Shown here: one piece after another, positions 43,547-59,853 of the stretch
How positions within the stretch are numbered: the first letter of the stretch is position 1
How the letters are laid out: every line of letters begins with the position of its first letter
NCBI GenBank assembly: GCA_900019985.1
Contig: FIZM01000047.1
Coordinates: 1 to 59,853, forward strand
Source: an uncultured Clostridia bacterium
Lineage (GTDB): Bacteria; Bacillota; SHA-98; UBA4971
Reading direction: 5' to 3'
DNA length: 59,853 bases
The notes under the pieces: generated by a model
What the model was told of the DNA's origin: nothing
The model's database searches: none
Seen by the model: only the letters and a program-made list of their open reading frames with translations
Made by a program: the position numbers and the translations under genes

Positions 43547-43580
43547 CGGATTATGCTTCGAGATGGAGGGTGGAAACCAG

Positions 43581-43964
43581 GTGCAGCTTAAGGATATTGC
43601 CAGAATCCTTGAGGCGGAAGTCCTCACGTGCGAGGACAAGCTTAACTGTACAGTGGAAGCTGCTTGCGGGTGCGATCTAATAAGTGATATGTTGGCATTT
43701 ACGAAAGAGAAGATGATTGTCCTTACAGGATTGGTATCTCCCCAGATCATCCGTGCAGCCGAGATGGTGGATCTTTCCGGTGTCGTATTTGTCCGCGGTA
43801 AGAGGCCTACACCTGACATCATTGAATTAAGTGAAGAATTAGGCATTCCGATTATGTGCACGCACTATCCGTTGTATGAGTCAGCAGGCTTGCTGTTTGC
43901 TGCAGGCTTGCCCGGGTGGAGGCATTGGCCTCGTGCTGTGGGAGGATCGGAGGATGCGCCTTGA
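43581..43964 (+). CDS. DRTGG-domain protein, first copy
   Basis: This 127-residue protein resembles the DRTGG domain family (about 110 residues): it starts MQLKDIARILEAEVLTC, then has MVDLSGVVFVRGKRP, ELGIPIMCT and LYESAGLLFAAG. DRTGG domains occur in HPr kinase N termini and CBS proteins and probably bind ligands; the function is unknown. The GTG at 43581 follows GGAGGG. It overlaps the next gene by 11 nt and has a paralogue at 45739, with an ATPase and a hydrogenase homologue between them. Confidence 0.75.
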   Translation: MQLKDIARILEAEVLTCEDKLNCTVEAACGCDLISDMLAFTKEKMIVLTGLVSPQIIRAAEMVDLSGVVFVRGKRPTPDIIELSEELGIPIMCTHYPLYESAGLLFAAGLPGWRHWPRAVGGSEDAP

Positions 43965-44382
43965 GTTCCCGGTTGCAGGCCGGGATTTCCAAGCTGCGGG
44001 AGGAGCAGCACAAAAGATTAAGCGGACTCTTCGTCAGATAGGTATAGATGCAGAAACCGCCCGACGTGTAGGCATAGTTGCGTATGAGGCGGAGATGAAT
44101 ATCGTGATACACGCTTTTTCAGGTAAGGTGGGCGTGGACATATTGCCTGAAAGGATCAATGTTTTTGCTTATGACCAGGGCCCCGGCATTGCTGACATCG
44201 ATCTGGCAATGCAAGTAGGGTACTCAACAGCTCCAGAAGATATTAAGGAGATGGGATTCGGAGCAGGATTAGGCCTTCCTAACATGAAACGGTATTCAGA
44301 CAACCTCGTGATAGAGTCAGAAGTAGGTTGCGGGACGAGTATCCGAGCAGTGATAAACTTACCGACGAAAGAAGGAAGTTGA
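43954..44382 (+). CDS. Anti-sigma-factor-type (RsbW-like) GHKL ATPase
   Basis: This 142-residue protein consists of one HATPase domain: N box EAEMNIVIHAF, G1 DQGPGI and the GFGAGLGLPNMKR lid with a final GCGTSI. This layout is that of RsbW/SpoIIAB-type serine kinases or anti-sigma factors, but no partner sigma or anti-anti-sigma gene is adjacent. GGAGG lies eight bases before the ATG. Placed between the DRTGG protein and the hydrogenase homologue, it may pass a redox signal to a protein partner (inference). Confidence 0.82.
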   Translation: MRLEFPVAGRDFQAAGGAAQKIKRTLRQIGIDAETARRVGIVAYEAEMNIVIHAFSGKVGVDILPERINVFAYDQGPGIADIDLAMQVGYSTAPEDIKEMGFGAGLGLPNMKRYSDNLVIESEVGCGTSIRAVINLPTKEGS

Positions 44383-44384
44383 TC

Positions 44385-45734
44385 ATGGGGCAGTTATTCC
44401 ACTCAGTTTTGCTCATTGAGGAAAAGTGCCGCGGATGCACCAGGTGCATTAAGAACTGTCCTACAGAAGCTATCCGGGTGAGAGCAGGTAAAGCCAGGAT
44501 CAACGCAGAACGATGTACAGATTGCGGTGAGTGTATCAGGACATGTGACAACTATGCGAAAACAGCCATTACTGACCCTTTGTCAAGACTGAAAGATTAC
44601 GAGTATGCCATCGCTCTACCCGCTCCTGCCTTGTACTCTCAATTCGGCCCCGATGTTGACCCCGCAACAGTATTGGCTGCACTCATAGATATGGGATTTG
44701 ACGATGTTTTTGAAGTTGCTTACGGTGCAGACATATCCACCTTCCTGACTGTAGAGTACCTCAGGAGGAATAAGAGAAAGGGGCCAATGATCTCAGCTGC
44801 GTGCCCCGCTGTTGTTAGGCTGATTCAGGTTCGCTTCCCTGCATTAATCGACTCCTTGATTCCTGTGGATTCACCTATGGCGTGCTCAGGGAAGCTGGCG
44901 AAAGAGGCGAAAAGCAGGGAGCTTGGAATCTGTGAAGGTAAGATCGGGGCTTTCTTCATCACTCCGTGCCCTGCCAAGGTCACATGGGTCAGAGAAGCGA
45001 ATAACCTTGGCAGTTTTGCTGTAGACGGAGCTATATCCATCTCTGATGTCTATGGAGAGGTTGCAAAAAGGCTGCCTGAAGTCATACCTCCTTATCCTAA
45101 ACCCAAGGCATCATCTGCCGGAGCAGGTTGGGGGCGCACAGGGGGCGAGCGTATTGCAGCGGGAATAGGGAAGAGCCTCGTGGTGGATGGAATACATAAT
45201 GTCATAGACGTCCTCGAGCAGCTGGAAATGGGCAAGCTTTCTGACATAAGATTTGTGGAAGCTCAGGCCTGTACAGGAGGATGTGTCGGTGGGGCTCTGA
45301 CCGTACTTAACCCGTTCATAGGCAGAATGAACCTGGAAGCCTTAGTTGCCAGATTGGAGACGCCTCCTAATCTCTTTGAAGAGCTTGACATAGATCTTAA
45401 CCTTCTGAGACGTTTTGATGAGTTTGCTATTAAACCCCAGATCGTAGCAGTGCCTGCGTTCAGGCTTGACCAAGATGTATCTCGGGCTATCAGCAAAGCA
45501 GAGATGATAGAGAAGGTAGTAAACGAGCTGCCAGGGCTTGACTGCGGTTCGTGCGGCAGCCCCCATTGCCGTGCACTTGCTGAGGATATCGTCCAGGGGC
45601 TTGCTGTTGACACTGACTGTGTCTTTAAACTGCGGGAAGAGATCGAAATCCTTGCTGAACAGCTCTTTGAAATGGCCAAGAAGAGCCCGCCTGCTCTAAA
45701 GGATAATGACGCTTTTTCAAAGCCTTGGGAGTGA
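44385..45734 (+). CDS. Sensory-type [FeFe]-hydrogenase homologue (HydS-like)
   Basis: This 449-residue protein has two N-terminal [4Fe-4S] motifs (CRGCTRCIKNCP and CTDCGECIRTC), then a hydrogenase-like core with changed H-cluster motifs. L1 is SAACPAVV (Cys140), L2 TPCPAK (Cys195) and L3 QACTGGCVGG (Cys296, Cys300). All four cluster ligands appear present. A C-terminal [4Fe-4S] domain of CGSC-x4-C-x16-C type (Cys387, 390, 395, 412) follows. The Ala before Cys140 replaces the proton-relay cysteine of catalytic enzymes, as reported for HydS of Thermoanaerobacter. A role as H2/redox sensor is inferred. Confidence 0.85.
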   Translation: MGQLFHSVLLIEEKCRGCTRCIKNCPTEAIRVRAGKARINAERCTDCGECIRTCDNYAKTAITDPLSRLKDYEYAIALPAPALYSQFGPDVDPATVLAALIDMGFDDVFEVAYGADISTFLTVEYLRRNKRKGPMISAACPAVVRLIQVRFPALIDSLIPVDSPMACSGKLAKEAKSRELGICEGKIGAFFITPCPAKVTWVREANNLGSFAVDGAISISDVYGEVAKRLPEVIPPYPKPKASSAGAGWGRTGGERIAAGIGKSLVVDGIHNVIDVLEQLEMGKLSDIRFVEAQACTGGCVGGALTVLNPFIGRMNLEALVARLETPPNLFEELDIDLNLLRRFDEFAIKPQIVAVPAFRLDQDVSRAISKAEMIEKVVNELPGLDCGSCGSPHCRALAEDIVQGLAVDTDCVFKLREEIEILAEQLFEMAKKSPPALKDNDAFSKPWE

Positions 45735-45738
45735 TGGT

Positions 45739-46101
45739 ATGGATCGTAGGGTGACAGTGGGCGATATCGCAAAGGAACTTGAATGTGAAGTAGTAGCGGG
45801 GAAAAGCTGCTTGGACAATGAGGTATCTTTCGGGTATTCGTCGGATCTCCTGAGCGATGTCATGGCAGGCGCAGGGCCTGGAGATGTCTGGGTTACTGTG
45901 CAGGTACACCAGAATATCATTGCTGTTGCAAGCCTTACCGGGATCTCCGCGATTATTGTCGCAGGGGGAGCTGCTCCTGCCGATGAGACTGTTCTTCGGG
46001 CCAATGAAGAAGGGATCCCGCTGCTGACCACGGCAAAACCTTCTTTTGAGGTGGCAGGCAGGCTGTACAGCATGGGTATCAGAGGCAGGGTAAAGACGTG
46101 A
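45739..46101 (+). CDS. DRTGG-domain protein, second copy
   Basis: This 120-residue paralogue of the protein at 43581 has VTVGDIAKELECEVVAG, SFGYSSDLLSDVMAGAGPGDV, LTGISAIIVAGG and EGIPLLTT. The ATG has GGGAG eight bases upstream and lies four bases after the stop of the HydS-like gene. The two copies differ in the loop after the first strand pair, so they may bind different ligands. Confidence 0.8.
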   Translation: MDRRVTVGDIAKELECEVVAGKSCLDNEVSFGYSSDLLSDVMAGAGPGDVWVTVQVHQNIIAVASLTGISAIIVAGGAAPADETVLRANEEGIPLLTTAKPSFEVAGRLYSMGIRGRVKT

Positions 46102-46119
46102 TGCGGGGAGGAGGGCTAA

Positions 46120-46869
46120 GTGAAGCTCTTTTTTGCTGATCTCCACATCCACACAGCTCTTTCCCCTTGTGCTGAGAATGAGATGACTCCGCCTGCGATA
46201 ATCAAGGCTGCAAAAGCCGAAGGACTGGACATTATCGGTATCTCCGACCATAATTCCGCAGAGAATGTGGTGGCAGCTATCGAGGCAGGTGCGGCTGAAG
46301 GCGTAACCGTCATAGGCGGAATTGAGGTCCAGACTGTAGAAGATGTCCATGTCCTGACATTTTTTCCGTGTGTAGACACGTTGTTCCGGTGGCAGGATGA
46401 AGTCTATTCCGCTTTGCCTGATATTGAGAATGACGAGAAAAGGTTCGGAGAGCAACTATTGATGGATTCCAATGGCAATGTAACAGGTAAATTACGGACC
46501 TTTCTTCTTGCGTCTACATCTATGAGCGTTGACTATGTGGGGAAAAGGGTCAGGGAATTGGGCGGCCTCGTTATACCTGCGCACATTGACAGGCCGTCAT
46601 TCAGCCTCATAAGGAACCTTGGTTTTGTTCCTGATACGCTTCTGCCTTGTTGTGTTGAGATATCGAAAAACACAAGCTCCGGATCGGCGAAGGAACGTTT
46701 TTCTTCTATTGCCGGGCTTCCTGTTATCAAGTCATCAGATGCTCACAGGTTAAGCGAAATATCGGCATATACAGAAATCCTGATGGAGGAGGCAAGTTGG
46801 GAGGAACTCCTGCTTGCTCTCGCATTTGTCGGTGGGCGAAGTATAAGGCCTCTTGATATTGTGTGTTAA
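46120..46869 (+). CDS. PHP-domain phosphoesterase
   Basis: This 249-residue protein keeps the metal ligands of the PHP superfamily: DLHIHTALSPC near residue 7, ISDHNS, GGIEVQT, IPAHIDRPSF and KSSDAH. PHP enzymes hydrolyse phosphate esters such as histidinol phosphate or nucleoside phosphates. Here the substrate is unknown, and the context suggests a role in the sensor module. It starts at a GTG behind GGGAGGAGG. Confidence 0.88.
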   Translation: MKLFFADLHIHTALSPCAENEMTPPAIIKAAKAEGLDIIGISDHNSAENVVAAIEAGAAEGVTVIGGIEVQTVEDVHVLTFFPCVDTLFRWQDEVYSALPDIENDEKRFGEQLLMDSNGNVTGKLRTFLLASTSMSVDYVGKRVRELGGLVIPAHIDRPSFSLIRNLGFVPDTLLPCCVEISKNTSSGSAKERFSSIAGLPVIKSSDAHRLSEISAYTEILMEEASWEELLLALAFVGGRSIRPLDIVC

Positions 46870-46908
46870 CTACAGTGGGTTAGAACCCGAGAAACGGGGA
46901 GGGATCAT

Positions 46909-47454
46909 GTGCGAGAGCTTTCTCTTCATATCCTTGACATAGCTCAAAACTCTATAGAATCAGGAGCTCGAAACATAGAGATCCTAATCGATGAAGACGA
47001 GTCTTCCGATGTTTTGACAATCGTAATTGCTGATGACGGCAAAGGGATTCCACCTGAGATCCTAAAGAGCATTACAGATCCTTTTGTCACAACGAGAAAA
47101 ACGCGCCGGGTTGGCCTTGGAATCCCCCTGTTTCAGGAGGCTGCAAGAATGGCAGGAGGGGATTTGGAGGTTCGCTCAACAGTCGGGGAAGGGACCGAGG
47201 TCATAGCTGAGTTTAAGCTGAGCAGTATTGACAGGGCGCCTCTCGGGGATATGGCGGAGACGATGGCTCTCTTAATGGTCCTGAATCCCGATGTGAATTT
47301 TAGATACGAGCATACCCGGGGGTATGCCAAATTTGTGTGCAGCACTGACGCTTTAGTAGAGATGCTTGGAGATACACCTATTTGGAGTCCGTCTGCAGTG
47401 CCTGTTATACGCAGTATAATCAGGGAAGGGCTCAGGAATGTCCAGGCTTCGTAA
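46909..47454 (+). CDS. Second GHKL-type ATPase (histidine-kinase-like ATPase domain)
   Basis: This 181-residue protein has an HATPase fold in the first 110 residues (HILDIAQNSIESGA, ADDGKGI, TTRKTRRVGLGIPLF). An additional C-terminal part of about 65 residues shows no motif I recognise. It has no dimerisation helix or His box, so it is not a complete histidine kinase. It starts at a GTG after GGGAGG. With the RsbW-like gene it makes two ATPases in the same island. Confidence 0.8.
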   Translation: MRELSLHILDIAQNSIESGARNIEILIDEDESSDVLTIVIADDGKGIPPEILKSITDPFVTTRKTRRVGLGIPLFQEAARMAGGDLEVRSTVGEGTEVIAEFKLSSIDRAPLGDMAETMALLMVLNPDVNFRYEHTRGYAKFVCSTDALVEMLGDTPIWSPSAVPVIRSIIREGLRNVQAS

Positions 47455-47489
47455 ACCGGTCGCTGTTGATGTCGGAGGTTATAGGCCTT

Positions 47490-47921
47490 ATGAAAGAGCG
47501 GGGAAGAGTGATTGAGACTCTAGGCAACGTGGCTAAAGTTGAGATATTCAGGAGAGACGAATGCAGCCGCTGCAAAGTATGCGGGTTTGGATCGAGAGAT
47601 AAGATTGTAGCGCATGCCACAAACACAGTAGGCGCAAAGGCACGTGATGAAGTTGAGCTTGAGTTGGAAGGCTCACAGGTAGTGAGGGCAGCTGCGATTA
47701 TGTACCTCGTGCCTCTTGCGTTTTTCTTAGTAGGCCTTTATCTTGGAAATCTATATGCATCCTACATCCATAGGCAGGATATTGCAGCTGTTGCTTCAGC
47801 GGTTTTGGGTTTCGCATTGCTGGGCCTTTCATACGTGTTGATTTCTCAATACAGCAGGGGGCCTGCCATTTCCCAATACCGGGCAAAGATTATCAGGATA
47901 GTGAGTAGGGACCAAGATTGA
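47490..47921 (+). CDS. RseC/MucC-family membrane protein
   Basis: This protein of about 143 residues has an N-terminal cysteine cluster CSRCKVCGFGS in a small beta domain (RGRVIETLGNVAKVEIFR) and two transmembrane helices (about residues 70-90 and 100-120). This matches SoxR-reducing system protein RseC, which is often linked to Rnf and other redox complexes. The ATG at 47490 lies about 12 bases after GGAGG; the frame is open further upstream. It is the last gene before the hyd operon leader. Confidence 0.75.
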   Translation: MKERGRVIETLGNVAKVEIFRRDECSRCKVCGFGSRDKIVAHATNTVGAKARDEVELELEGSQVVRAAAIMYLVPLAFFLVGLYLGNLYASYIHRQDIAAVASAVLGFALLGLSYVLISQYSRGPAISQYRAKIIRIVSRDQD

Positions 47922-48074: not shown

Positions 48075-48437
48075 GTGAAAACAGTTGACGACCTTGAACG
48101 GATCAGGAAGCAAGCTAAGGCGATGACAAGACTGAGAGAAAGCGCGGAGACTACTAAGATTGTAGTAGCTATGGGGACGTGTGGGATTGCGGCAGGCGCC
48201 CGTGAAACTCTGTCAGCCATTATGGATGAGCTTGCAAGGCGGAATCTTCAGGATGTTATTGTGACTCAGACAGGTTGTATCGGACTATGCGAACAGGAGC
48301 CAATCATCGCTGTGATGATACCGGGCAGAGAGAAAGTGTCGTACGGAAGAGTGTCTCCGGAAAAAGCGCGTCAGATTGTGGCCAGCCATGTTGTAAATGG
48401 CCAGGTAGTCGGCGAGTGGGTCATTCCAACAGGTTAA
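48075..48437 (+). CDS. Thioredoxin-like [2Fe-2S] ferredoxin domain protein
   Basis: This 120-residue protein has the fold of the N-terminal part of HydB/NuoF-associated thioredoxin-like ferredoxins: VVAMGTCGIAAGARE, then TQTGCIGLCEQEP. Only three of the usual four cluster cysteines are obvious (one in GTCG, two in CIGLC), which I believe is usual for this subfamily. GGGAGG lies eight bases before the GTG. It is the first gene downstream of the Rex site and is probably co-transcribed with hydCBA. Confidence 0.85.
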   Translation: MKTVDDLERIRKQAKAMTRLRESAETTKIVVAMGTCGIAAGARETLSAIMDELARRNLQDVIVTQTGCIGLCEQEPIIAVMIPGREKVSYGRVSPEKARQIVASHVVNGQVVGEWVIPTG

Positions 48438-48478
48438 ACAACAGAAAAGAGCGCCTTTCATGAAAAGGGGGCTTTAAA

Positions 48479-48958
48479 ATGGATGTCGTGTCCATGAGCC
48501 TGGATAGTTTGGAATCGGCCGTTAAGGAGATTGTTCAGCGGCATGGTGGAAGTGAGTATGAACTTGTTGCTATCTTGAACGATGTTCAGAAGGTGTGCGG
48601 GTACCTTCCTGAAAGTGCGCTCATCCAGGTTGCTAAGGGCCTTGATGTGCCTCTCTCAAAGGTGTATGGTGTCGCTACCTTCTACAGCCTGCTTTCTGTG
48701 GAACCCTTGGGAGAACACGTAATCAGAGTCTGCGAGAATGCCCCTTGCCATCTGTTAGGCGCAGAGTCTTTAGTCGATGTTCTCCAAAAGGAGCTCGGGA
48801 TTCCCATGGGTGGGACTACAAGTTGCGGCAAGTTTTCTCTTAAGTACACCAGTTGTCTCGGAGTATGCGGTGTTGCACCGGCGATTATGATCGATGATGA
48901 AGTGTACGGTAACCTCACGCCCGATGATATTCCGGTTATTCTTGACAAATACAGATGA
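48479..48958 (+). CDS. hydC: Bifurcating hydrogenase subunit HydC (NuoE-like)
   Basis: This 159-residue NuoE-type subunit has four [2Fe-2S] cysteines (CENAPC and CLGVC), with VYGVATFYSLL and VCGVAPAIMIDDEVYG around them. It passes electrons between HydB and HydA in the NADH/ferredoxin-dependent [FeFe]-hydrogenase. The ATG has GGGGG eight bases upstream. Confidence 0.93.
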   Translation: MDVVSMSLDSLESAVKEIVQRHGGSEYELVAILNDVQKVCGYLPESALIQVAKGLDVPLSKVYGVATFYSLLSVEPLGEHVIRVCENAPCHLLGAESLVDVLQKELGIPMGGTTSCGKFSLKYTSCLGVCGVAPAIMIDDEVYGNLTPDDIPVILDKYR

Positions 48959-48982
48959 CATCCGGGGAGGAGGTGGCGATCG

Positions 48983-50593
48983 ATGCGATTCTACCGTTCA
49001 CATGTCCTGGTATGTGGGGGAACTCCATGTGTTCTCGAAGGATGCACAGCAGTTCGTGACGCACTGATAGGTGAGTTAAAGCGCCTGGGTCTTGATGAAG
49101 AAGTAAGGGTAGTTGAAACCGGCTGCTTAGGCCCGTGTGATCTCGGACCTGTAATTGTCGTTTACCCCGAAGGGACTCTGTATGAGAAAGTCAAGGTCTC
49201 TGACGTTCCAAGAATAGTTGAGGAGCATCTTCTAAAAGGCAGGATTGTACGGAGCCTTACAGGCGAAGGCAGGGTTCTGGGGATTGCTAGATATGAAGAG
49301 CCTCAATATCTTGAAGTGCAAGAGCGGATTGTCCTTAGAAATTGCGGTATTATCGATCCTTCCTCTATCGAAGAGTACATCGCTGCCGACGGGTATAGAG
49401 CTTTAGCAAAGTGTCTGACTGAGATGGAACCTTCTGATGTCATAGAAGTTGTCAAGGAGTCCGGTCTTGTGGGCAGAGGAGGAGCTGCGTTTCCCACAGG
49501 CCTTAAATGGAACTTTACAGCGAAAGCTGATGCTGATGAGAAGTTCATCATATGCAATGCAGATGAAGGGGAACCCGGTACGTTTAAGGATCGCCTGATT
49601 TTGGAAGGAGATCCCCATAGTATAATTGAGGCTATGGCTATTGCCGGGTATGCGGTGGGAGCCAATCGAGGTTTCGTCTACATAAGGGGTGAGTACGGCC
49701 TTTCCATCGACCGGATAAACGAAGGAATTAAGCAGGCAAAAGCCATGGGATTACTGGGTGAGGACATCCTTGGATCAGGCTTTTCTTTTGACATAGAGAT
49801 ACGAAGAGGTGCAGGCGCCTACGTGTGCGGTGAGGAGACTGCCCTTATTGAGTCGATGGAAGGCGGCAGAGGAGAGCCGAGGGTCAAGCCCCCGTATCCA
49901 AGCACCCATGGTTTCCTCGGAAAGCCTACTGTGGTGAATAACGTAGAAACACTGGCCAATATCCCTCCGATAATACTTGACGGGTCCGACTGGTTCAGAG
50001 GATTCGGCACATCTAGGTGTCCGGGCACTAAGGTCTTTACCATGACAGGGGACATCAACTGCAAAGGCCTCATTGAAGTGCCTATGGGTATCACCTTGCG
50101 CAAGATTATCTATGAGATAGGAGGAGGGATTCCCGGGGGCAGGAAGTTTAAGATGGCGCAGACCGGAGGGACTTCCGGAGGGTGTCTCCCCGCTGAGATG
50201 CTTGATGTGCCCATGGATTACTTTACCCTTCCTGAGATGGGATCCGCCCTTGGATCAGGCGCATTGCTGATAATGGATGACAGCCACTGCATAGTTGATA
50301 TCGCAGAATCCTTCATGAGGTTCTTTGCAAGCGAATCGTGTGGGAAATGTGTTCCCTGCCGTGAAGGCACGGCCAGATTGCACGATATCGTAAAGAAGCT
50401 CGCGGAAGGTAACGGAACCGGAGAAGACATTAGGCTCTTGGAAGATCTGAGCCATACCATGCAAAGAACGGCTCTCTGCGGGCTTGGTCAGTCTGCCCCT
50501 GTGCCCATCATGACTATGCTCAAGTATTTCAGGGATGAGTTTGAATCTCATATTAAAGACAGGCTGTGTCCCACAGGGACATGCAGGCTGTGA
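48983..50593 (+). CDS. hydB: Bifurcating hydrogenase subunit HydB (NuoF-like), without C-terminal ferredoxin domain
   Basis: This 536-residue flavoprotein has an N-terminal [2Fe-2S] thioredoxin-like domain (Cys11/16 and TGCLGPC), the FMN/NADH module (GRGGAAFPTGLKW, CNADEGEPGTFKDR, GAGAYVCGEETALIESMEG) and the NuoF [4Fe-4S] motif ESCGKCVPCREGT...ALCGLG. It is the site of NAD(H) oxidation and, in the bifurcating complex, of flavin-based splitting. Most HydB proteins (about 600 residues or more) continue with two more [4Fe-4S] motifs; this one stops at CPTGTCRL, 36 bp before hydA, with no remnant downstream. Confidence 0.94.
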   Translation: MRFYRSHVLVCGGTPCVLEGCTAVRDALIGELKRLGLDEEVRVVETGCLGPCDLGPVIVVYPEGTLYEKVKVSDVPRIVEEHLLKGRIVRSLTGEGRVLGIARYEEPQYLEVQERIVLRNCGIIDPSSIEEYIAADGYRALAKCLTEMEPSDVIEVVKESGLVGRGGAAFPTGLKWNFTAKADADEKFIICNADEGEPGTFKDRLILEGDPHSIIEAMAIAGYAVGANRGFVYIRGEYGLSIDRINEGIKQAKAMGLLGEDILGSGFSFDIEIRRGAGAYVCGEETALIESMEGGRGEPRVKPPYPSTHGFLGKPTVVNNVETLANIPPIILDGSDWFRGFGTSRCPGTKVFTMTGDINCKGLIEVPMGITLRKIIYEIGGGIPGGRKFKMAQTGGTSGGCLPAEMLDVPMDYFTLPEMGSALGSGALLIMDDSHCIVDIAESFMRFFASESCGKCVPCREGTARLHDIVKKLAEGNGTGEDIRLLEDLSHTMQRTALCGLGQSAPVPIMTMLKYFRDEFESHIKDRLCPTGTCRL

Positions 50594-50629
50594 CTTCACT
50601 TTGCTCCATAACGGAAGGAGTGATAGAAG

Positions 50630-52372
50630 GTGGCAGTGGTAACGATAGACGGCCAGAAAGTCCAGGTAGATGCCGGTACTACCATTCTTGAGGCCGCTCG
50701 GAAGCTGAGCATTGATATCCCCACTTTGTGCCATCATCCTGACCTGGAAGTCCAAGCCGTTTGCCGTGTTTGCGTCGTAGAGATAGAAGGAGAGAAACTG
50801 CTTCAACCTGCATGTGCCTATCCGGTAAGGGACAACATGGCAGTCCGCACAAACACACCTGATGTCAGACGGGCAAGGAGAGTAAACCTCGAGCTTATCC
50901 TCGCTCATCACCCCACTGACTGCCTCCAATGCGTCAGGAATCAGAATTGTGAGCTTCAAGCACTGGCTGAAAGGTTAGGGATGAGAGAGGTTCGCTTTGA
51001 GCATAAACTACGTGGCCTTCGCCTGGATGAGTCGACTCCGTCAATAGTACGCGAACCTGACAAATGCATAGTATGTCGCAGATGCGTAGCTATGTGCCGG
51101 GATGTGCAGGCTGCGACCGTGTTGTGGCCGGTGGGGAGAGGCCAGGACACAGTGGTGGTGCCTGCATGTGAGAGGGACTTGGCAGATGTTGCATGCGCCC
51201 TGTGTGGACAGTGCATACATGCGTGTCCTGTAGGGGCGATTGCGGAGCGAGATGATACAGAAAAGGTTTACCGGGCACTTGCAGATCCTACCAAACACGT
51301 AGTTGTCCAGACTGCACCTGCTACAAGGGTCAGCATTGGCGAGGAGCTGGGCTTCCCGCCGGGTAAGATTTTCACAGGGAAACTTGTTGCAGCTCTCAGA
51401 AGGCTAGGATTTGACAAGGTCATGGATACAGACTTCACTGCTGACCTGACGATTATCGAAGAAGGACATGAGCTTCTGAAAAGAATTAAGGAAGGCGGCC
51501 CTCTTCCACTGATTACTTCGTGCAGCCCCGGCTGGATTAAGTTCGGCGAGCATTTCTTCCCGGATCTTTTGGATCATGTCTCTACATGCAAGTCGCCGCA
51601 GCAAATGTTCGGGGCCTTGGTGAAGACCTATTATGCGAAGAAAGCAGGGATAGATCCGAAGGATATATTCTCAGTATCCCTTATGCCGTGCACTGCTAAG
51701 AAGTTTGAAGCGGAGCGCCCTGAGATGGCTTCTTCAGGCTATCAAGATGTCGATGTCGTCCTCACCAGCAGAGAACTGGGTAGGATGATGCGTGAGGCAG
51801 GGATTGATTTTGCGAATCTCCCTAATGAGGAGCATGACGACCCAATGGGCATTTCCACCGGCGCAGCTGCGATTTTCGGTGCTACCGGCGGGGTTATGGA
51901 GGCTGCATTGAGGACGGTATATGAAGTGGCAACAGGCCTGGACCTGCCCAGTATCGACTTTCATGAAGTCAGAGGCCTTGAAGGGATAAAAGAGGCAGAG
52001 GTAATGCTTGGCAATATGAAAGTCAGGGTGGGGATCGCCCACGGTCTCGCCAACAGCAAGAGGATCTTGGAAATGGTGAGAGACAAGGAGAGGGAATACC
52101 ACTTCATTGAGATAATGGCATGTCCAGGCGGTTGTGTTGGCGGAGGAGGCCAACCCATACCGACTAATATGGAAATACGCGGGATTCGCGGTAATGCGCT
52201 GTATGAAGCAGACCGCCTGCTGCCGCTCAGGAAGTCTCATGATAACCCTGCGATAAAGCAACTCTATGAAGAATTCTTGATGCAACCGCTTGGGGAAGTG
52301 TCCCACCGGCTTTTGCATACTCACTACACAAAACGCAGCAAGTATCCGGTTTCCAAGGACACCTGCGGTTGA
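50630..52372 (+). CDS. hydA: [FeFe]-hydrogenase catalytic subunit HydA (group A3)
   Basis: This 580-residue protein has an N-terminal [2Fe-2S] domain, a His-ligated [4Fe-4S] site (HHPTDCLQCVRNQNC), two [4Fe-4S] motifs (CIVCRRCVAMC and CALCGQCIHACP) and an H-cluster domain. Its motifs are L1 TSCSPGW (Cys298), L2 MPCTAKKFE (Cys354) and L3 MACPGGCVGGGGQP (Cys498, Cys502). It makes or uses H2, exchanging electrons with NADH and ferredoxin through HydB and HydC. GGAAGGAG lies nine bases before the GTG. Confidence 0.96.
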   Translation: MAVVTIDGQKVQVDAGTTILEAARKLSIDIPTLCHHPDLEVQAVCRVCVVEIEGEKLLQPACAYPVRDNMAVRTNTPDVRRARRVNLELILAHHPTDCLQCVRNQNCELQALAERLGMREVRFEHKLRGLRLDESTPSIVREPDKCIVCRRCVAMCRDVQAATVLWPVGRGQDTVVVPACERDLADVACALCGQCIHACPVGAIAERDDTEKVYRALADPTKHVVVQTAPATRVSIGEELGFPPGKIFTGKLVAALRRLGFDKVMDTDFTADLTIIEEGHELLKRIKEGGPLPLITSCSPGWIKFGEHFFPDLLDHVSTCKSPQQMFGALVKTYYAKKAGIDPKDIFSVSLMPCTAKKFEAERPEMASSGYQDVDVVLTSRELGRMMREAGIDFANLPNEEHDDPMGISTGAAAIFGATGGVMEAALRTVYEVATGLDLPSIDFHEVRGLEGIKEAEVMLGNMKVRVGIAHGLANSKRILEMVRDKEREYHFIEIMACPGGCVGGGGQPIPTNMEIRGIRGNALYEADRLLPLRKSHDNPAIKQLYEEFLMQPLGEVSHRLLHTHYTKRSKYPVSKDTCG

Positions 52373-52462: not shown

Positions 52463-52524
52463 ACGTTTGAGAGCTTTCCAAGCCTTTTCAAAACTGAAGC
52501 TATTCGTATGTGGAGGGGAGCAGA

Positions 52525-53160
52525 GTGGAGCAAAAGAACATACCAGACGTTGTTATCAGGCGCCTCCCCGTATACCTTAGGGTTCTCGAGAACCTTCCCG
52601 AGGACTTCCATGAAAATGTGATTTCCTCGTTTGAACTGGGTGAAAGGTCAGGTGTGACTCCTGCCCAGGTCAGGAAGGATCTAAGTATGGCCGGCGCCTT
52701 CGGTAAACAGGGGCTGGGCTATGATATCCATGTTCTGCAAGACAAACTCAAGAAGATCCTTAATTTAGACAAAGAAATAAGGGTTGCAATTATCGGTGTC
52801 GGGAGTCTGGGCCATGCGATTGCCAGGTATATAACGCAAAGGTACAGCGCGGAAAGGGATTACCATCTTAGATTAGTTGCCCTCTTTGACACCGATCCCG
52901 GGGTGTTAGGTGAAGTTATCGGCGGTATAGAGGTACATCACATAGACAGCTTCCGCGAGAAGGCTCGAGAGCTCAAATTCAGAATGGTTGTCATAGCTGT
53001 TCCTGCTGAGGCTGCTCAAGCCGTGATGAACGAGTGTGCTGTTGCAGGAATCGAGGCAGTTCTTAACTTTGCACCTGTCCACTTGAAAGCCCCTGAAGGC
53101 ATAAGGATTCATAATACAGATCTTAGCATCGACCTGATGCACTTAGCTTATTACCTTTAG
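52525..53160 (+). CDS. rex: Redox-sensing transcriptional repressor Rex
   Basis: This 211-residue protein has an N-terminal winged helix (IRRLPVYLRVLE, SSFELGERSGVTPAQVRKDLS) and a Rossmann NAD(H)-binding domain (VAIIGVGSLGHAIARY). It ends with the domain-swapped helix region HNTDLSIDLMHLAYYL. Rex represses fermentation and hydrogenase genes at low NADH and releases DNA when NADH binds. The GTG at 52525 has GGAGGGG seven bases upstream. Rex-like palindromes flank it at 47974 and 53209. Confidence 0.96.
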   Translation: MEQKNIPDVVIRRLPVYLRVLENLPEDFHENVISSFELGERSGVTPAQVRKDLSMAGAFGKQGLGYDIHVLQDKLKKILNLDKEIRVAIIGVGSLGHAIARYITQRYSAERDYHLRLVALFDTDPGVLGEVIGGIEVHHIDSFREKARELKFRMVVIAVPAEAAQAVMNECAVAGIEAVLNFAPVHLKAPEGIRIHNTDLSIDLMHLAYYL

Positions 53161-53226: not shown

Positions 53227-53295
53227 TTGCACCAGGATACATTCTCCGGATTTTGGGACGTAACTCATGTCAGGTTATGGGCAAGGAGGAATAAT

Positions 53296-54147
53296 ATGTA
53301 TAGAATTCTCAAGAAAGAAATGTTAGCGCCTAAGATCAAGCTGATTCAAGTTTATGCCCCTGAAATATGTACGCATGCACGCCCAGGGCAGTTCGTCATC
53401 TTAAGGATGCATGAAAAAGGAGAACGGATACCGCTGACAATAGCAGACAGCGACCGGGATACTGGCTTGCTGACTTTGGTATTTCAGGAGGTCGGGAAGA
53501 GCACGACAGAGCTGGGGATGCTTTCGGAAGGTGATTCCATTTTAGATATAGTCGGCCCTCTCGGAACCGCAAGAGACATCGAAAAGCTGGATTGTGTCGT
53601 GTGTGTTGCAGGGGGAGTGGGGGTTGCTCCCATGTATCCTGAGGCAAAAGCCTACCACCTGCTGGGAACCAGGGTCATATCGCTTATCGGTGCACAGACA
53701 AAAGATATGTTGATATTTAAGGACAGGATGGAAAAAGTCAGTGATGAGGTCTACTACAGCACAGATGACGGGAGCTTCGGACATAAAGGTTTTGTAACTG
53801 AGATTCTCTGCAAATTGCTGGAAGACGGGCTGCGTCCTGATGAGGTAATAGCCATAGGTCCTCTTCCAATGATGCGTGCAGCTGCAAGAGTTACTGAAAG
53901 GTTCGGAGTTAAGACTGTTGTCAGTTTGAATGCGATTATGGTAGACGGCACAGGGATGTGCGGTTCATGCCGCGTGACAGTAGATGGAGAAGTTAAGTTT
54001 TCATGTGTTGAAGGTCCTGCGTTTGACGGTCATAAAGTGGATTTTGATGAATTGATAGCACGACAAAACCGATTCTTGGCAGAGGAGAAACTTGCCTTGG
54101 AGCGATATCTGGCCGGCGTGGGGGGATGCAAATGTCATCAAAAGTAA
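53296..54147 (+). CDS. nfnA: NfnA, small subunit of NADH-dependent reduced ferredoxin:NADP+ oxidoreductase
   Basis: This 283-residue protein belongs to the ferredoxin-NADP reductase-like family with an FAD domain (RPGQFVILRMHEKGERIPLTI), a nucleotide-binding domain (VVCVAGGVGVAPMYPEAKAY) and a C-terminal [2Fe-2S] site (GTGMCGSCRV...FSC). With NfnB it couples NADH and reduced ferredoxin to NADPH formation by flavin bifurcation. AAGGAGG precedes the ATG. The end overlaps nfnB by 16 nt. Confidence 0.93.
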   Translation: MYRILKKEMLAPKIKLIQVYAPEICTHARPGQFVILRMHEKGERIPLTIADSDRDTGLLTLVFQEVGKSTTELGMLSEGDSILDIVGPLGTARDIEKLDCVVCVAGGVGVAPMYPEAKAYHLLGTRVISLIGAQTKDMLIFKDRMEKVSDEVYYSTDDGSFGHKGFVTEILCKLLEDGLRPDEVIAIGPLPMMRAAARVTERFGVKTVVSLNAIMVDGTGMCGSCRVTVDGEVKFSCVEGPAFDGHKVDFDELIARQNRFLAEEKLALERYLAGVGGCKCHQK

Positions 54148-55547
54148 GACAACCAAGACAAGAAATGCCGAAACAACAACCTGATGTCCGTTCTAAGAAC
54201 TTCCAAGAGGTAGCATTAGGTTACACAGAAGAGCTGGCAGTGGCTGAAGCTAATCGCTGCATTCAATGTCCGAAAAAGCCTTGCGTCTCCGGGTGCCCTG
54301 TCGGTGTAGATATTCCTGAGTTTATAGACCTTATTGCTAAAGGAGACTTCCTCGGAGCGGCAAGAAAGATTAAAGAGAAAAACAGTCTGCCTGCTATGTG
54401 CGGCCGTGTGTGTCCCCAGGAAACCCAGTGTGAGGCAGTGTGCACTCTGGGTAAGAGGGGCGAGCCTGTGGCAATAGGGGCTCTTGAGCGTTTTTGTGCT
54501 GATTACGAAAGAATGCACGGGGACCCACTTTCTGATGCCCAGCGTTCTGATGGGTCTTCCGGAAGAGTTGCAGTCGTCGGCTCAGGCCCGGCAGGTTTAA
54601 CATGTGCCTCTGAGCTTGCGAAGCTTGGATACAAAGTTGTTTTATTTGAATCTTTGCACGACACAGGTGGCGTGCTTAGATACGGTATACCTGAGTTTCG
54701 TTTGCCTAAAGCTATTGTGGATGAGGAGGTGGAATACATCAAGAGTCAAGGCGTAGAAATACGCCTGAATGTGCTTGTAGGTGCAACGGTTACAGTGGAT
54801 GAGCTTTTCCAGGAAGGGTTTGATGCGATATTTCTGGGGACAGGTGCAGGATTGCCATATTTCCTGGGAATACCCGGGGAGAACCTGAACGGCGTATATT
54901 CGGCAAATGAGTTCCTGACCAGAGTGAACCTGATGAAAGCCTACAGGTTTCCTGATTATGATACCCCGGTTTGGGTAGGGAAGCGTGTTGCAGTTGTAGG
55001 CGGAGGGAATGTCGCCATGGATTCAGCCAGGACCGCACTGCGGCTGGGCGCAGAAAAAGTGACAGTTGTGTACAGGCGTTCAAGGGCGGAAATGCCTGCG
55101 AGGCTTGAAGAGATTGAAAATGCTGAGGAAGAAGGGATTGAGTTTTATCTCCTTGCAAACCCGGTCCGCATTCTCAGCGATGACAAAGGCTGGGTTAAGG
55201 GGATGGAGTGCGTCAGGATGGAGTTGGGAGAGGAAGACTCCAGCGGTAGGCGCAGGCCTGTCCCTGTTCCCGGTTCAGAATTCATCCTTGACGTTGATAC
55301 TGTAATATCAGCTGTTGGTACAGATCCTAATCCTCTGTTAGTCAGGACTATTCCCGGACTTGATTTGGGAAGGCGCGGGAATGTTATTATTGATGAAGAA
55401 ACAGGAATGACGAATATACCTGGAGTGTTTGCAGGTGGTGACATTGTTACCGGCTCTGCTACTGTAATCGCAGCGATGGGCGCAGGCAAGGCAGCTGCCC
55501 ATGGCATTGATAAGTATATTAGTGCAAGAAACGGAAGGGGTATGTAA
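54132..55547 (+). CDS. nfnB: NfnB, large subunit (glutamate synthase small-subunit-like)
   Basis: This 471-residue flavoprotein has N-terminal [4Fe-4S] cysteines ([35 protein letters not shown]), an FAD Rossmann motif ([18 protein letters not shown]), an NADPH motif ([19 protein letters not shown]) and the final GVFAGGDIV block. GltD alone could look similar, but its position directly after nfnA identifies it as NfnB. The ATG at 54132 lies six bases after GGGGGG; the ATG at 54126 is in frame but too close. Confidence 0.92.
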
Positions 55548-55549
55548 AT

Positions 55550-57244
55550 ATGTCTAAGGATTACGGTAGAATTCCTCCTGATATCGAGATCGCACAGGGT
55601 GCTAAGCTGAAGCCTATCCTGGAAATCGCAAAGAGCATAGGCCTTACCGAAGATGATCTCGAGTTCTACGGTAAGTACATGGCAAAAGTCAGTTTGGAGA
55701 CAATTGAAAGGCTGAAAGAGCGTCCCTACGGAAAACTGATTTATACTACTGCGATAACAGCTACGCCTGCCGGTGAAGGCAAGACGTGTACAGCTGTAGG
55801 ATTGACTCAGGCTTTGGGGAGGATGAACAAAAAGGTTATGGTAGCCCTCAGAGAGCCTTCCTTAGGCCCTACTTTCGGTATTAAAGGTGGAGCTGCAGGA
55901 GGAGGATACTCTCAGGTGCTTCCCATGGAGGATATTAACCTTCATTTCACCGGTGATATCCATGCAGTGGGCTCAGCCCATAACCTCCTTGCAGCCATGG
56001 TGGAAAACCATATCCATCAAGGGAATGACCTGGGGATAGATCCCAGGAGGGTCGCATGGCGCAGGGTCATGGACATCAGTGACAGGCAATTACGTAATAT
56101 CGTAGTCGGCCTTGGAGGAAAGGCAAACGGTACTCCTATGGAGAGCGGATTCGATATTACGGTAGCATCAGAAATAATGGCTTGTTTCGGACTGTCTCGC
56201 TCACTAAGCGATCTTAAGGAACGCTTTGCCAAGCTCATTGTAGGGTACACCTACGACGGAAAACCGGTGACTGCTGCTGACCTGAAGGCAGTGGGAGCTA
56301 TGGCAGTCCTTATGAAAAACGCGATAAAACCCAACTTGGTCCAGACCCTTGAAGGACAGCCTGCTTTTGTGCACTGCGGGCCTTTTGCCAATATCGCGTA
56401 CGGCAATAACAGCATAATGGCCACGGAGACAGCTCTTAGGTTGGCTGACTATGCCGTTACAGAAGGCGGATTTGCCGCTGACCTCGGTGCTGAGAAATTC
56501 TTCGACATAGTATGCCGCTTGACTGACGTAAGGCCTGACGTAGTGGTGCTGGTTACCTCTGTCCGTGCGCTCAACCACCATGGCGGAGCAGCCAGGGATG
56601 AACTTGCTGAAACCAACCTGGCTTACTTGGAGAAGGGTTGCGCGAACCTGGATAAGCACATTGAAAATGTAAGAGACAAATTCGGCCTTCCGGTCGTTGT
56701 AGCCATTAACAGATTCCCCACAGACGATGATGTCGAGCTGGAGTTCTTGAAGAAGCATTGCGATGACATGGGAGTCAGAGCTGCTATCTCCGAGGTAGTG
56801 GCGCGCGGTGGTGAAGGCGGCATTGAGCTTGCAAATGAAGTCCTGGATGCCCTGGAGAATGAAAAGCCTAACTTCAGATTCTTGTATGACCTGGACATAC
56901 CTGTGAAAGACAAGATTGAGAAGTTGGCTAAGGAGATTTACGGGGCTCGAGGAGTTGTGTACTCAGCTGCTGCGGAGCGTTCCATCAGGAATATCGAAAA
57001 GCAGGGCTTAGGAGGTTTGCCGATCTGCACTGCTAAGACACAGCTTTCATTGAGCGATGATCCTGCTTTGCGGGGAGCGCCCACTGATTGGGAGCTTAAC
57101 GTACGCGAGGTAAGGGTATCTGCAGGAGCAGGGTTCATTGTGCCTCTTTGCGGACAGATGATGACAATGCCCGGTCTTCCAAAGCATCCTGCTGCAGAAA
57201 ACGTAGATATTGATGATGAGGGACATGTCGTAGGCCTATTCTAA
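55550..57244 (+). CDS. fhs: Formate--tetrahydrofolate ligase
   Basis: This 564-residue protein starts [13 protein letters not shown] and contains the P-loop [34 protein letters not shown] and the family's C-terminal PGLPKHPAA. It makes 10-formyl-THF from formate, THF and ATP, the first step of the Wood-Ljungdahl methyl branch in acetogens and syntrophs. It follows nfnB after two bases, so it is probably in the nfnAB operon and under the same control. Confidence 0.97.
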
Positions 57245-57279
57245 CCGACGGTCTTACTCGTGGAGGTTTTCCAAGGTGG

Positions 57280-57319
57280 CTTCCCGGCGGCGTTTCAGCC
57301 GCCGGGAAGTCTTATGTCT
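57280..57319 (+). terminator. Terminator after fhs
   Basis: CTTCCCGGCGGC (57280-57291) pairs perfectly with GCCGCCGGGAAG (57298-57309) around the loop GTTTCA, followed by TCTTATGTCTT. The 12-bp GC-rich stem is strong and the tail is moderately T-rich. Confidence 0.82.
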
Positions 57320-57576
57320 TGCGGTATTTGTGGATTAATGTGAACCAACAACTCGGGAGGCGCCGGAATCCTGGTGCCCGTCTTATGGTTTTCTGATATT
57401 CGCAAGCTAGTGTTCGTTTTGTTCTGCATAGGAGAATCAATTGTGGTATTATCTTATAGGGATTATTACAAGGCACTACCCATGGGATCCATGGCGCCTG
57501 GCGCCTATTTAACTGTATGAAGGTATTCGGAGGCAAATGGGGGATAAGATTCTCGGAAGGGGGAGTATTTAGAGAC
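57320..57576. other. Intergenic region upstream of rnfC
   Basis: About 260 bp separate the fhs terminator from rnfC. I see no gene and no clear promoter; a TATTAT at 57447-57452 lacks a matching -35. Two CCATGG and two GGCGCC six-mers lie close together near 57480-57506. A Rex-like site was looked for and not found. Confidence 0.5.
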
Positions 57577-58899
57577 ATGGCACTCAGGACTTTCAGGGGA
57601 GGAGTCCATCCAAGCTATAACAAAGATGCAACGTATGCGAAACCGGTTTTGTCTATATCTACTCCGGAAAAGGTTGTCATCCCTCTTCATCAGCACACCG
57701 GTGCTCCTTGTGAGCCCATTGTGAAGGTGGGAGATGAAGTCAAGATCGGCCAGAAGATAGGCGACAGCCAGGCTGCCCTCACCGCTCCTGTTCATGCCAG
57801 CGTATCCGGAAAGGTAAAAGCCATAACAAATCATCCGTTGTCAACCGGTGTGGACGGCCGTTGCGTCGTCATTGAATCTGACGGCCTTGATGCATGGGAC
57901 GAGAGTGTAAAACCCAGGAACGATGTGGACAAACTGAGCCCGGAAGAGATCATTGGAATCATTCGCGAAGCAGGCATAGTGGGTTTGGGAGGAGCTGCAT
58001 TTCCTACGTATTTCAAGCTTACCCCTCCTAAAGGTAAGACCTTTGACACGCTCTTACTCAACGGGGCTGAGTGTGAGCCTTATCTTTCTGCTGATCACAG
58101 GATAATGGTTGAACGCCCTGCTGACGTAGTTGCCGGTGCCAGGCTTCTTATGAAGGCTATCGGAGTGGAAAAGGCAATTATCGGTGTGGAAAACAACAAA
58201 CCTGACGCGATTTCTGCTTTGATGAAAGAAGTCGAGGGAGATAAGGGAATCGAAATCGTCCCTCTCGGAGTCAAGTACCCTCAAGGCGCTGAAAAACAGC
58301 TGATCTGGGCGATTTTAGGGCGAGAAGTGCCTTCAGGCGGTTTGCCTGTTGATGTCGGTGTCGTAGTAAACAATGTGGGTACTGCAGTTGCAGTTAAAGA
58401 GGCTGTTGCGGAAGGAATGCCCCTTGTCAGGCGGGTTGTTACCGTGGCCGGAAGCTGCGTGAAAGAGCCCAAAAACCTTATGGTTCCCATAGGGACTCTC
58501 GTCAGCGATCTAATAGAGGCGTGCGGCGGGACTCAGATCCCTCCGAGGAAGGTAATAATCGGCGGGCCTATGATGGGTGTGGCACAGCATACTACAGAGG
58601 TTCCGGTGACAAAGGGCACGTCGGGAATACTGCTCCTTTCAGAGAAAGAAGCAGCTGTATATGAGCCGATTCCTTGCATTAGATGTGGAAAATGCGTAGA
58701 TGCGTGTCCAATGAATCTTATGCCGCTCTGGCTGTCAGGCTACGCTGAAGCCTCAAGGTTTGATGATTGTGAGAGGCTCGGTGCACTTGACTGTATAGAG
58801 TGCGGGTGCTGCAGTTTTATTTGCCCGTCGTCAAGACGGTTGGTGCAAGGGATCCGGTTGGCAAAAGCGGAGATTATGGCAAAGCGTAGAGCGAAATAA
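57577..58899 (+). CDS. rnfC: Rnf complex subunit RnfC
   Basis: This 440-residue protein has the RnfC start TFRGGVHPSYNK, a NuoF-like nucleotide domain (GLGGAAFPTYFKL, LLNGAECEPYLSADHR) and two [4Fe-4S] motifs (CIRCGKCVDACPMNLMP and CIECGCCSFICPS). RnfC is the peripheral NADH-oxidising subunit of the membrane Rnf complex, which couples ferredoxin:NAD+ electron flow to Na+ or H+ transport. The ATG at 57577 follows AAGGGGGAG by 11 bases; the ATG at 57517 has none. Confidence 0.94.
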   Translation: MALRTFRGGVHPSYNKDATYAKPVLSISTPEKVVIPLHQHTGAPCEPIVKVGDEVKIGQKIGDSQAALTAPVHASVSGKVKAITNHPLSTGVDGRCVVIESDGLDAWDESVKPRNDVDKLSPEEIIGIIREAGIVGLGGAAFPTYFKLTPPKGKTFDTLLLNGAECEPYLSADHRIMVERPADVVAGARLLMKAIGVEKAIIGVENNKPDAISALMKEVEGDKGIEIVPLGVKYPQGAEKQLIWAILGREVPSGGLPVDVGVVVNNVGTAVAVKEAVAEGMPLVRRVVTVAGSCVKEPKNLMVPIGTLVSDLIEACGGTQIPPRKVIIGGPMMGVAQHTTEVPVTKGTSGILLLSEKEAAVYEPIPCIRCGKCVDACPMNLMPLWLSGYAEASRFDDCERLGALDCIECGCCSFICPSSRRLVQGIRLAKAEIMAKRRAK

Positions 58900-58960
58900 C
58901 GATAATGCTTCATTGATACCGGTAAATCTTGGAGAAGTGGGAGTTCGGAGGGATTAGGAA

Positions 58961-59853
58961 ATGGAAGGCAGCGGATTCATAGTATCTTCGTCACCGCATC
59001 AGCGTACAACTGTCACAACTCCTATGATAATGATGGACGTAATATTAGCGCTTATGCCTGCATGTTTTGCAGGCGTGTGGTTTTTCGGATTGCATGCTCT
59101 TGCCATGATGGTAGTATGCGTGGCATCAGCAGTTATCACAGAGGCGGCTCTTCAGAAGATCTGTGGCAAACCTATTACAGTGAGCGATTACAGCGCAGCT
59201 GTAACCGGGTTGTTGCTTGCTCTTATAGTTCCGCCTGATTTGCCGCTTTGGCTTGGGGCAATTGGGTCAGTGTTTTCTATAGCCATAGCTAAGTTTGTTT
59301 TTGGCGGCCTTGGCCAGAACATATTCAACCCTGCGCTCATCGGTAGGGCATTCCTAGTGGCCTCATGGCCTGTTTTTATGACTGATTGGCGTTGGCCTGC
59401 CGGTCAGATAGCCTGGATACCGAATTTCGATGCTCTGACCACTGCAACCCCACTGGTTCTCATGAAGAGGATGGCTATTAAGGCACCTTATGCAGATCTA
59501 TTCATCGGGAGGGTTGCAGGTTGTATAGGTGAGACCTCAGCCCTTGCCATTCTTTTGGGTGCGGCTTATCTGGTTTACAGGGGCCACATAAGCTTGAGGA
59601 TTCCTCTTAGCTTTATAGGCACTGTCATGGTAGTGACAGCACTCTTTGGGCAAGACCCGCTGTTTCACCTTTTGGCAGGCGGGCTTCTTATCGGGGCGTT
59701 CTTTATGGCTACAGACTATGTAACCAGCCCTGTGACTCCGAGAGGCCAGATAATCTACGGGATAGGGTGCGGCGTGCTGGTGGCTTTAATGAGGCTTTAC
59801 GGCGGATATCCTGAAGGTGTGTGTTATGCGATTCTCATAATGAATGCTGCCAC
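58961..59853 (+). CDS. rnfD: Rnf complex subunit RnfD, 5' part (cut by window end)
   Basis: The frame runs from the ATG at 58961 (GGAGGGATTAGGAA upstream) to the window end without a stop, 297 codons. Several membrane helices and the blocks SSSPHQR, LGQNIFNPALIGRAFL, LTTATPLVLMK and FMATDYVTSPVTPRGQ match RnfD. The Thr in the TTATP motif is the expected covalent FMN attachment site. Only the last few percent of the protein is missing. rnfG, rnfE, rnfA and rnfB would be expected downstream. Confidence 0.94.
   Translation, partial: MEGSGFIVSSSPHQRTTVTTPMIMMDVILALMPACFAGVWFFGLHALAMMVVCVASAVITEAALQKICGKPITVSDYSAAVTGLLLALIVPPDLPLWLGAIGSVFSIAIAKFVFGGLGQNIFNPALIGRAFLVASWPVFMTDWRWPAGQIAWIPNFDALTTATPLVLMKRMAIKAPYADLFIGRVAGCIGETSALAILLGAAYLVYRGHISLRIPLSFIGTVMVVTALFGQDPLFHLLAGGLLIGAFFMATDYVTSPVTPRGQIIYGIGCGVLVALMRLYGGYPEGVCYAILIMNAA

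Follow-up and report, generated by a model that had tools for sequence, protein, structure and literature searches.

Sensory roles were ascribed in 2012 to [FeFe] hydrogenases of group D (M2e) by proximity: these enzymes lie upstream of trimeric bifurcating hydrogenases and near histidine/serine kinase genes (e.g. Cthe_0335 near Cthe_0340-0342, Csac_1857 and Athe_1292; PMC3561251). One group D enzyme, TamHydS, reacts with H2 (PMC8163306, PMC10407848), and the group D papers leave signal transmission by HydS as an open question. Here we analyse a cassette of six genes at positions 43581-47454 of contig FIZM01000047.1 from an uncultured Clostridia bacterium (GTDB lineage Bacteria; Bacillota; SHA-98; UBA4971; assembly GCA_900019985.1), the whole stretch of 59,853 nucleotides being referred to below as the window. 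The cassette encodes, in this order, a DRTGG protein (DRTGG1), a GHKL-type protein (HATP1), a group D hydrogenase (HydS, or HydS-D), a second DRTGG protein (DRTGG2), a PHP-family protein (PHP) and a second GHKL-type protein (HATP2). With moderate confidence we interpret these six genes as one signalling cassette around the predicted kinase HATP1, in which HydS would provide the input, DRTGG2, PHP and HATP2 would form a downstream arm, and HATP2 would direct the output to redox enzymes. The cassette probably reports the H2 level or the reducing power to the cell.

The first-pass annotation of the window had proposed six adjacent genes on one strand at these coordinates, beginning at 43581 and lacking a classical histidine kinase or response regulator, and all of this stands. 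Pfam recognizes, in consecutive genes on the + strand and always above the cut-offs, DRTGG, HATPase_c_2/HATPase_c, Fe_hyd_lg_C with FeS and Fer4, DRTGG, PHP (with PHP_C) and HATPase_c, and finds neither a HisKA domain nor a response regulator in the locus. The first start codon is most likely the GTG at 43581, just 3' of a GGAGGG sequence (an alternative ATG lies at 43563). Adjacent genes either overlap, by 11 bases at most, or leave gaps of 2-39 bases, a packing that makes a single transcript for all six likely.

The co-occurrence survey called for by the same annotation, which had taken absent linkage as grounds for abandoning the proposal, revealed conserved linkage. Scanning GTDB species genomes with a HydS alignment yielded 80 named loci (numbered L###) from Bacillota, Atribacterota, Thermodesulfobacteriota, Spirochaetota and Armatimonadota, or 81 with the window. 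The order DRTGG1-HATP1-HydS-DRTGG2-PHP was found within the expected distances in 60 of the 81 loci, and in 37 of these 60 HATP2 is encoded further downstream, its commonest site being within the hydrogenase operon, where it separates HydC from the [2Fe-2S] ferredoxin; such cassette-order counts are lower bounds because several loci end at contig edges. All six genes are present in the exact order in Parabacteroides distasonis (Bacteroidota), where no hydrogenase operon adjoins them and the gene annotated as 'hypothetical' is DRTGG1. The recurrence of the cassette order in several phyla is far above chance. A phylum survey of 399 genomes detected HydS-D in 161 and HATP1 in 170 of them, both together in 159, HydS alone in two and HATP1 alone in 11 (Fisher p = 5e-95, a value that ignores shared ancestry and is not to be taken literally). 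The PHP family was present in 155 of these genomes, 151 of which also have HATP1.

Four kinds of gene fusion were observed. DRTGG1 is fused to HATP1 in 12 loci (L035, L040, L158-L160, L169-L175) and a pair of CBS domains to HATP1 in 11 loci (CBS at 7e-32 to 2e-29 in the six scanned), while HATP1 is fused to HydS in three loci (L092, positions 9539-11359, in Fermentithermobacillaceae, plus L167 and L168; a single family with two genera), where the two parts are not separated by a stop codon, and PHP to HATP2 in six loci (L089, plus L189-L193 from five genomes of a single family). As the loci come from two overlapping collections whose redundancy was retained, these counts refer to loci rather than to independent events. 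Since the fusions recur in separate genomes, sequencing error is an unlikely cause. Together they connect DRTGG1, HATP1 and HydS mutually, and PHP with HATP2. That the genes are merely co-operonic and have unrelated jobs is highly improbable given these four kinds of fusion, the pairing of HydS with HATP1 in 159 of the 161 genomes that have HydS and an order that is kept even in Bacteroidota; the one result in line with it, mirror-tree correlations among the module proteins (0.29-0.44) no higher than those with the control HydB, is uninformative because the control correlates equally.

HydS is absent from 12 loci that contain HATP1. Five of them (L152, L156, L165, L166, L194) keep DRTGG1, HATP1, DRTGG2, PHP and HATP2, with a CBS pair on HATP1 in all five; in two (L151, L155) DRTGG1 and CBS-HATP1 head an Rnf operon; in two others (L150, L157) DRTGG1-HATP1 is found with RseC, Rex and Nfn; and in the remaining three (L149, L153, L154) the DRTGG proteins, HATP1 and HATP2 occur near Rex. 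CBS-HATP1 and HydS are both present in L161-L164, and Rex adjoins DRTGG1-HATP1 in L158-L160 and L169-L175. Because the HydS-less loci keep HATP1, this protein rather than HydS is the constant centre of the system, its companions being HydABC, Rnf, Nfn and Rex. The exchange suggests that HydS and the CBS pair are two inputs that can stand in for each other. We considered and rejected a permanent place of the cassette in the hydrogenase operon, since there are loci in which its company is Rnf or Rex/Nfn and others in which it stands by itself. The idea of a dedicated signal-transduction system put forward in the first-pass annotation thus survives as a multi-gene module, with sensor and GHKL kinase genes fused in one family, but not its tie to hydrogenase, as the module stands alone in Parabacteroides and goes with Rnf or Rex/Nfn where HydS is missing. 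The same neighbourhoods bear on a quite unlikely reading without signalling, in which the cassette would assemble or maintain iron-sulphur redox enzymes, its GHKL ATPases working as motors in the manner of chaperones and HydS serving as scaffold or redox aid: the cassette often lies in or beside operons of large Fe-S enzymes (hyd, Rnf), with HATP2 usually inside the hydrogenase operon, but the CBS inputs, PHP and the HydS/CBS interchange suit regulation better, and in Parabacteroides and other loci the module is found away from any hydrogenase operon.

Some of these neighbourhoods have further features. A stand-alone thioredoxin-like [2Fe-2S] ferredoxin gene lies between DRTGG1/CBS-kinase and RnfC in L151 and L155, and polysaccharide deacetylase and TPR genes are interposed in L149, with genes of like size and order in L153 and L154.

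HATP1 (43954..44382, + strand; HATPase_c_2) is a predicted SpoIIAB/RsbT-like GHKL protein kinase, matched to SpoIIAB by PDB profile (7e-12) and by fold. It forms a sharply separate family, scoring 8e-62 in the window's genome as compared with 8e-12 for the next GHKL protein. The catalytic Glu and Asn of the N-box (E47, N51) and the motifs DxGxGI (G1) and GFGAGxGL (G2) are invariant or nearly so, and these conserved catalytic residues lead us to infer a phosphorylating activity. The best reading of HATP1 would be a protein kinase gated by exchangeable inputs, by HydS for H2/ferredoxin and by CBS for adenylates, fusion and exchange both pointing to such gating. The closest solved structures by sequence and fold, SpoIIAB and RsbW, would also fit an anti-sigma factor that sequesters a sigma factor under the control of HydS, with DRTGG as the anti-anti-sigma in place of STAS. 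This we consider very unlikely, as no sigma factor gene occurs in the neighbourhoods read and the G2 region of HATP1 (GYSTA...GFGAGMGLPN) looks nearer to that of the switch kinase RsbT, which does not bind sigma; the comparison with RsbT (32% identity to an approximate RsbT sequence) serves as a lead only.

The cassette HydS (44385..45734, + strand) is assigned to the group D (M2e) [FeFe] hydrogenases by its Pfam domains, invariant residues and position in the tree, a membership that rests securely on the residues and the domain plan. Across an alignment with ten homologues, the four H-cluster ligands (C140, C195, C296, C300), the eight N-terminal Cys of two [4Fe-4S] clusters and the C-terminal Cx2Cx4Cx16C cluster (C387, C390, C395, C412) are all invariant. 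On the other hand, the proton-relay Cys (C299 of CpI) is lost, with Ala or Ser in its place in most of the ten homologues, and the two framing Met are replaced by Thr and Gln, the motifs being ISAACPA, ITPC and AQAC as opposed to MPC and MAC in the HydA of the window. E255 and E292, likewise invariant, correspond to E252 and E289 of TamHydS (mapped via the flanking GGE and E-x-x-x-C), which are important for proton transfer according to PMC10407848. Pfam detects no PAS domain C-terminal to the H-domain, the feature expected of group C. In the tree, the clade that holds HydS (support 97/99) is distinct from HydA as well as from the group C proteins with PAS, albeit with long branches and unsure deep joins. 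The predicted structure of the HATP1-HydS fusion (mean pLDDT 91.7, pTM 0.79) matches [FeFe] hydrogenases in fold. H2 sensing by HydS of this group would follow a proposal from the literature, by analogy with TamHydS, the only member for which reactivity with H2 is known.

The genome of the window contains two further HydS-type sensors. One (L117; contig C27, 3540-5882) is a HydS-PAS-histidine kinase that lies beside a trimeric hydrogenase and has a response regulator of the sigma54 type next to it, the domains being read from the sequence; the other (L118; contig C55, 2247-4073) is a HydS-PAS protein whose neighbours are a phosphatase of the SpoIIE type and a further trimeric hydrogenase, where SpoIIE is a Pfam match and the rest was again read from the sequence. 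Counting the window, this genome thus provides each of its three hydrogenase operons with a separate HydS, and each HydS with another kind of phospho-signalling partner; the wiring of the other two speaks for the favoured reading of the cassette. The third H-cluster motif of the L117 HydS, LFCEGCING, has two residues between the Cys instead of the three of groups D and A, which may be genuine or may reflect an error of assembly. Three other loci with HATP1-HydS (L052, L078, L088; no DRTGG or PHP) have in common a large histidine kinase-like gene on the upstream side and a neighbouring gene for ~240 aa; in L078 the two encode a GAF-PAS histidine kinase and a response regulator of the OmpR type, and genes for Sir2 and CheW come next.

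DRTGG1 (43581..43964, + strand; Pfam DRTGG 40.7 bits) and DRTGG2 (45739..46101, + strand; 33.3 bits) are stand-alone DRTGG proteins that pass the Pfam gathering cut-off and match 2ioj in fold. A profile-profile match of 99.9% identifies them as paralogues, and they account for all DRTGG matches in the window's genome. D38 and S41 of a D-x-x-S motif in DRTGG1 (numbered from 43563) are invariant in the aligned set, S41 in 69 of 69 loci, and the joint alignment of both families (38 sequences) leaves D38, S41 and T55 (DRTGG1 numbering) invariant; the Ser of the motif in DRTGG2 is S38 (numbered from 45742). S41 may be a phosphoacceptor or a ligand-site residue, both being compatible with the alignment. 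This motif of the cassette proteins is not evident in AF_1212. The matches of a merged DRTGG profile against PDB were designed repeat proteins and were discarded as false.

The predicted phosphoesterase PHP (46120..46869, + strand; PHP and PHP_C) has a complete set of trinuclear-metal ligands, with all nine putative ligands (H9, H11, D43, H44, E69, H77, H155, D207, H209) invariant in the alignment. HATP2 (46909..47454, + strand; HATPase_c 64 bits) resembles the ATP-binding domain of histidine kinases and continues into a conserved C-terminal region; it has no HisKA/DHp domain and Pfam detects no receiver domain in the locus, i.e. the hallmarks of a two-component system are absent from the cassette. 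The roles we propose for PHP and HATP2 are suggested by linkage and fusion. The nearest solved relatives of PHP, EndoQ and a 5'-3' exoribonuclease, act on nucleic acid and are too distant to decide between a phosphoprotein and a nucleotide substrate. They agree with an alternative in which the signal is a nucleotide rather than a protein phosphate, with adenylates as the ligands of CBS and DRTGG, a nucleotide messenger as the substrate that PHP hydrolyses and ATP-dependent switching by the GHKL proteins. Although the fusion of CBS pairs to HATP1 and the joint occurrence of CBS and DRTGG in the regulatory region of the C. perfringens pyrophosphatase (3l2b) also favour this alternative, we regard it as unlikely, because the cassette has no nucleotide cyclase or synthase and the full conservation of the catalytic Glu/Asn in HATP1 speaks for phosphoryl transfer.

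In the signalling cassette that we favour, HydS, as a slow group D hydrogenase, would equilibrate with H2 and reduced ferredoxin, and a shift in its conformation or redox state would switch HATP1 on or off; DRTGG1, attached directly to the kinase, would be a second domain that serves in regulation or as substrate. HATP1 would most likely phosphorylate a partner, the DRTGG proteins being the first candidates; PHP would take the phosphate off this target; and HATP2, encoded as a rule inside the hydrogenase operon, would carry the output to hydrogenase and other redox enzymes. Gene order, near-perfect co-occurrence, fusions and intact catalytic residues are what we observed, and gating, phosphorylation, substrate and output are inferred. 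Several points weigh against this scheme. The occasional fusion of DRTGG1 to the kinase suits a role in regulation no less than a role as substrate, and HATP1-HydS occurs without DRTGG in five loci (L052, L078, L083, L088, L111), where DRTGG is therefore dispensable. The AlphaFold model of DRTGG1-HATP1 combines a pLDDT of 91 with a pTM of only 0.54, so that the domains are well modelled and their orientation is of low confidence. The single STAS protein detected in this genome (90% complete) adjoins SpoIIAB on contig C3 rather than the cassette, which leaves no visible STAS substrate for the cassette kinase, and our literature search gave no biochemical or genetic datum on the cassette HATP1, DRTGG, PHP or HATP2. 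A more specific version, doubtful but conceivable, is a separate class of signalling in which an RsbT-like kinase gated by hydrogenase (H2/ferredoxin) or CBS (energy charge) would phosphorylate the invariant Ser of DRTGG proteins, these taking the place of STAS, while PHP would replace PP2C in removing the phosphate and HATP2 would read out to HydABC, Rnf and Nfn.

The cassette had been described as directly upstream of the hydrogenase operon; it is indeed upstream, but a gene for an RseC/MucC-like membrane protein with an N-terminal Cys cluster (47472..47921, + strand; RseC_MucC 77.7 bits) intervenes. This protein is an occasional associate, found again in a few lineages in which the cassette occurs together with Rex and Nfn (the window, L150, L157); in E. 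coli, RseC goes with Rsx/Rnf. The genes for a [2Fe-2S] ferredoxin, HydC, HydB and HydA of a bifurcating group A [FeFe] hydrogenase follow (48075..52372, + strand), HydA being of the NADH-dependent group A6 (NCBIfam NF040763, 898 bits). On their 3' side are found, in this order, Rex (52510..53160, + strand; library matches), an NADH/NAD+-responsive repressor that often adjoins the cassette, then NfnAB, formate-THF ligase, RnfC and RnfD. With hyd, Rex, Nfn and Rnf genes lined up, the window appears as a run of genes for the balance of H2, NADH and ferredoxin. The genes from NfnAB to RnfD (53293-59851) suggest an acetogenic or syntrophic energy metabolism. Rex-operator patterns gave no match at the strict consensus, and the sole loose match near the module sits inside the HydS gene; promoter and terminator scans of the locus gave no score above shuffled sequence, and scans with defence and phage libraries no useful match.

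The survey names a likely partner for HydS, a kinase that is inherited together with it in almost all genomes and forms a single chain with it in one family, and, with HydS as one of two inputs and three partners downstream, makes the question of group D signalling directly testable. The hosts of the cassette include acetogens, syntrophs, biofuel clostridia and gut Parabacteroides, in which the control of H2/ferredoxin decides the fermentation products.

Among the known systems, the partner switches of SpoIIAB, RsbW and RsbT share with HATP1 the GHKL fold and catalytic residues, and possibly a kinase-substrate-phosphatase logic; unlike them, the cassette lacks a STAS substrate, a PP2C phosphatase and a sigma factor, and DRTGG and PHP proteins are found in it instead. 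The CBS-DRTGG region of clostridial pyrophosphatase (3l2b, 3l31) and AF_1212 (2ioj) have the DRTGG fold of the cassette proteins, with CBS and DRTGG in company, but the pyrophosphatase region regulates its enzyme in cis, and AF_1212 has no evident counterpart of the D-x-x-S motif. In group C, HydS/HfsB of Ruminococcus albus, Thermoanaerobacterium and T. maritima (PMC11837493, PMC10055695) is an H-domain sensor tied to signalling proteins, as in the cassette, and deletion of hfsB alters fermentation (PMC11837493, PMC10055695); these proteins differ from the cassette HydS by a PAS domain, a fused or adjacent histidine kinase or serine phosphatase, and a separate clade, and two systems of this type are present elsewhere in the window's genome. 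In group D, TamHydS of Thermoanaerobacter mathranii (PMC8163306, PMC10407848, PMC13104023) shares with the cassette HydS the domain plan, the four H-cluster Cys, the loss of C299, the E252/E289 path, the C-terminal Cx2Cx4Cx16C cluster, the lack of a PAS domain and the location upstream of a bifurcating hydrogenase; the papers on it treat the enzyme alone, and their available portions describe no DRTGG, PHP, CBS or fusions. The M2e hydrogenases of PMC3561251 agree with the cassette HydS in gene class, position and kinase neighbours, and the available part of that paper describes no six-gene order, HydS-less occurrence or fusions. The first-pass annotation had stated that parts of the pathway recur near hydrogenases and that, as far as known, no mechanism of the pathway had been described; the recurrence is real, but the sensor class and its neighbourhood of kinases and bifurcating hydrogenases had already been published (PMC3561251, PMC8163306). 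No description of the whole cassette was found in the open literature searched, which did not cover Zheng 2014 and Calusinska 2010, nor was any link between DRTGG and hydrogenase, the DRTGG passage of the one co-mention being concerned with lactate use. Overall, group D enzymes were known before, as was the fact that kinase genes and bifurcating hydrogenases lie near them; what this analysis adds is the order of the cassette, its co-inheritance, its fusions and the probable exchange of its inputs.

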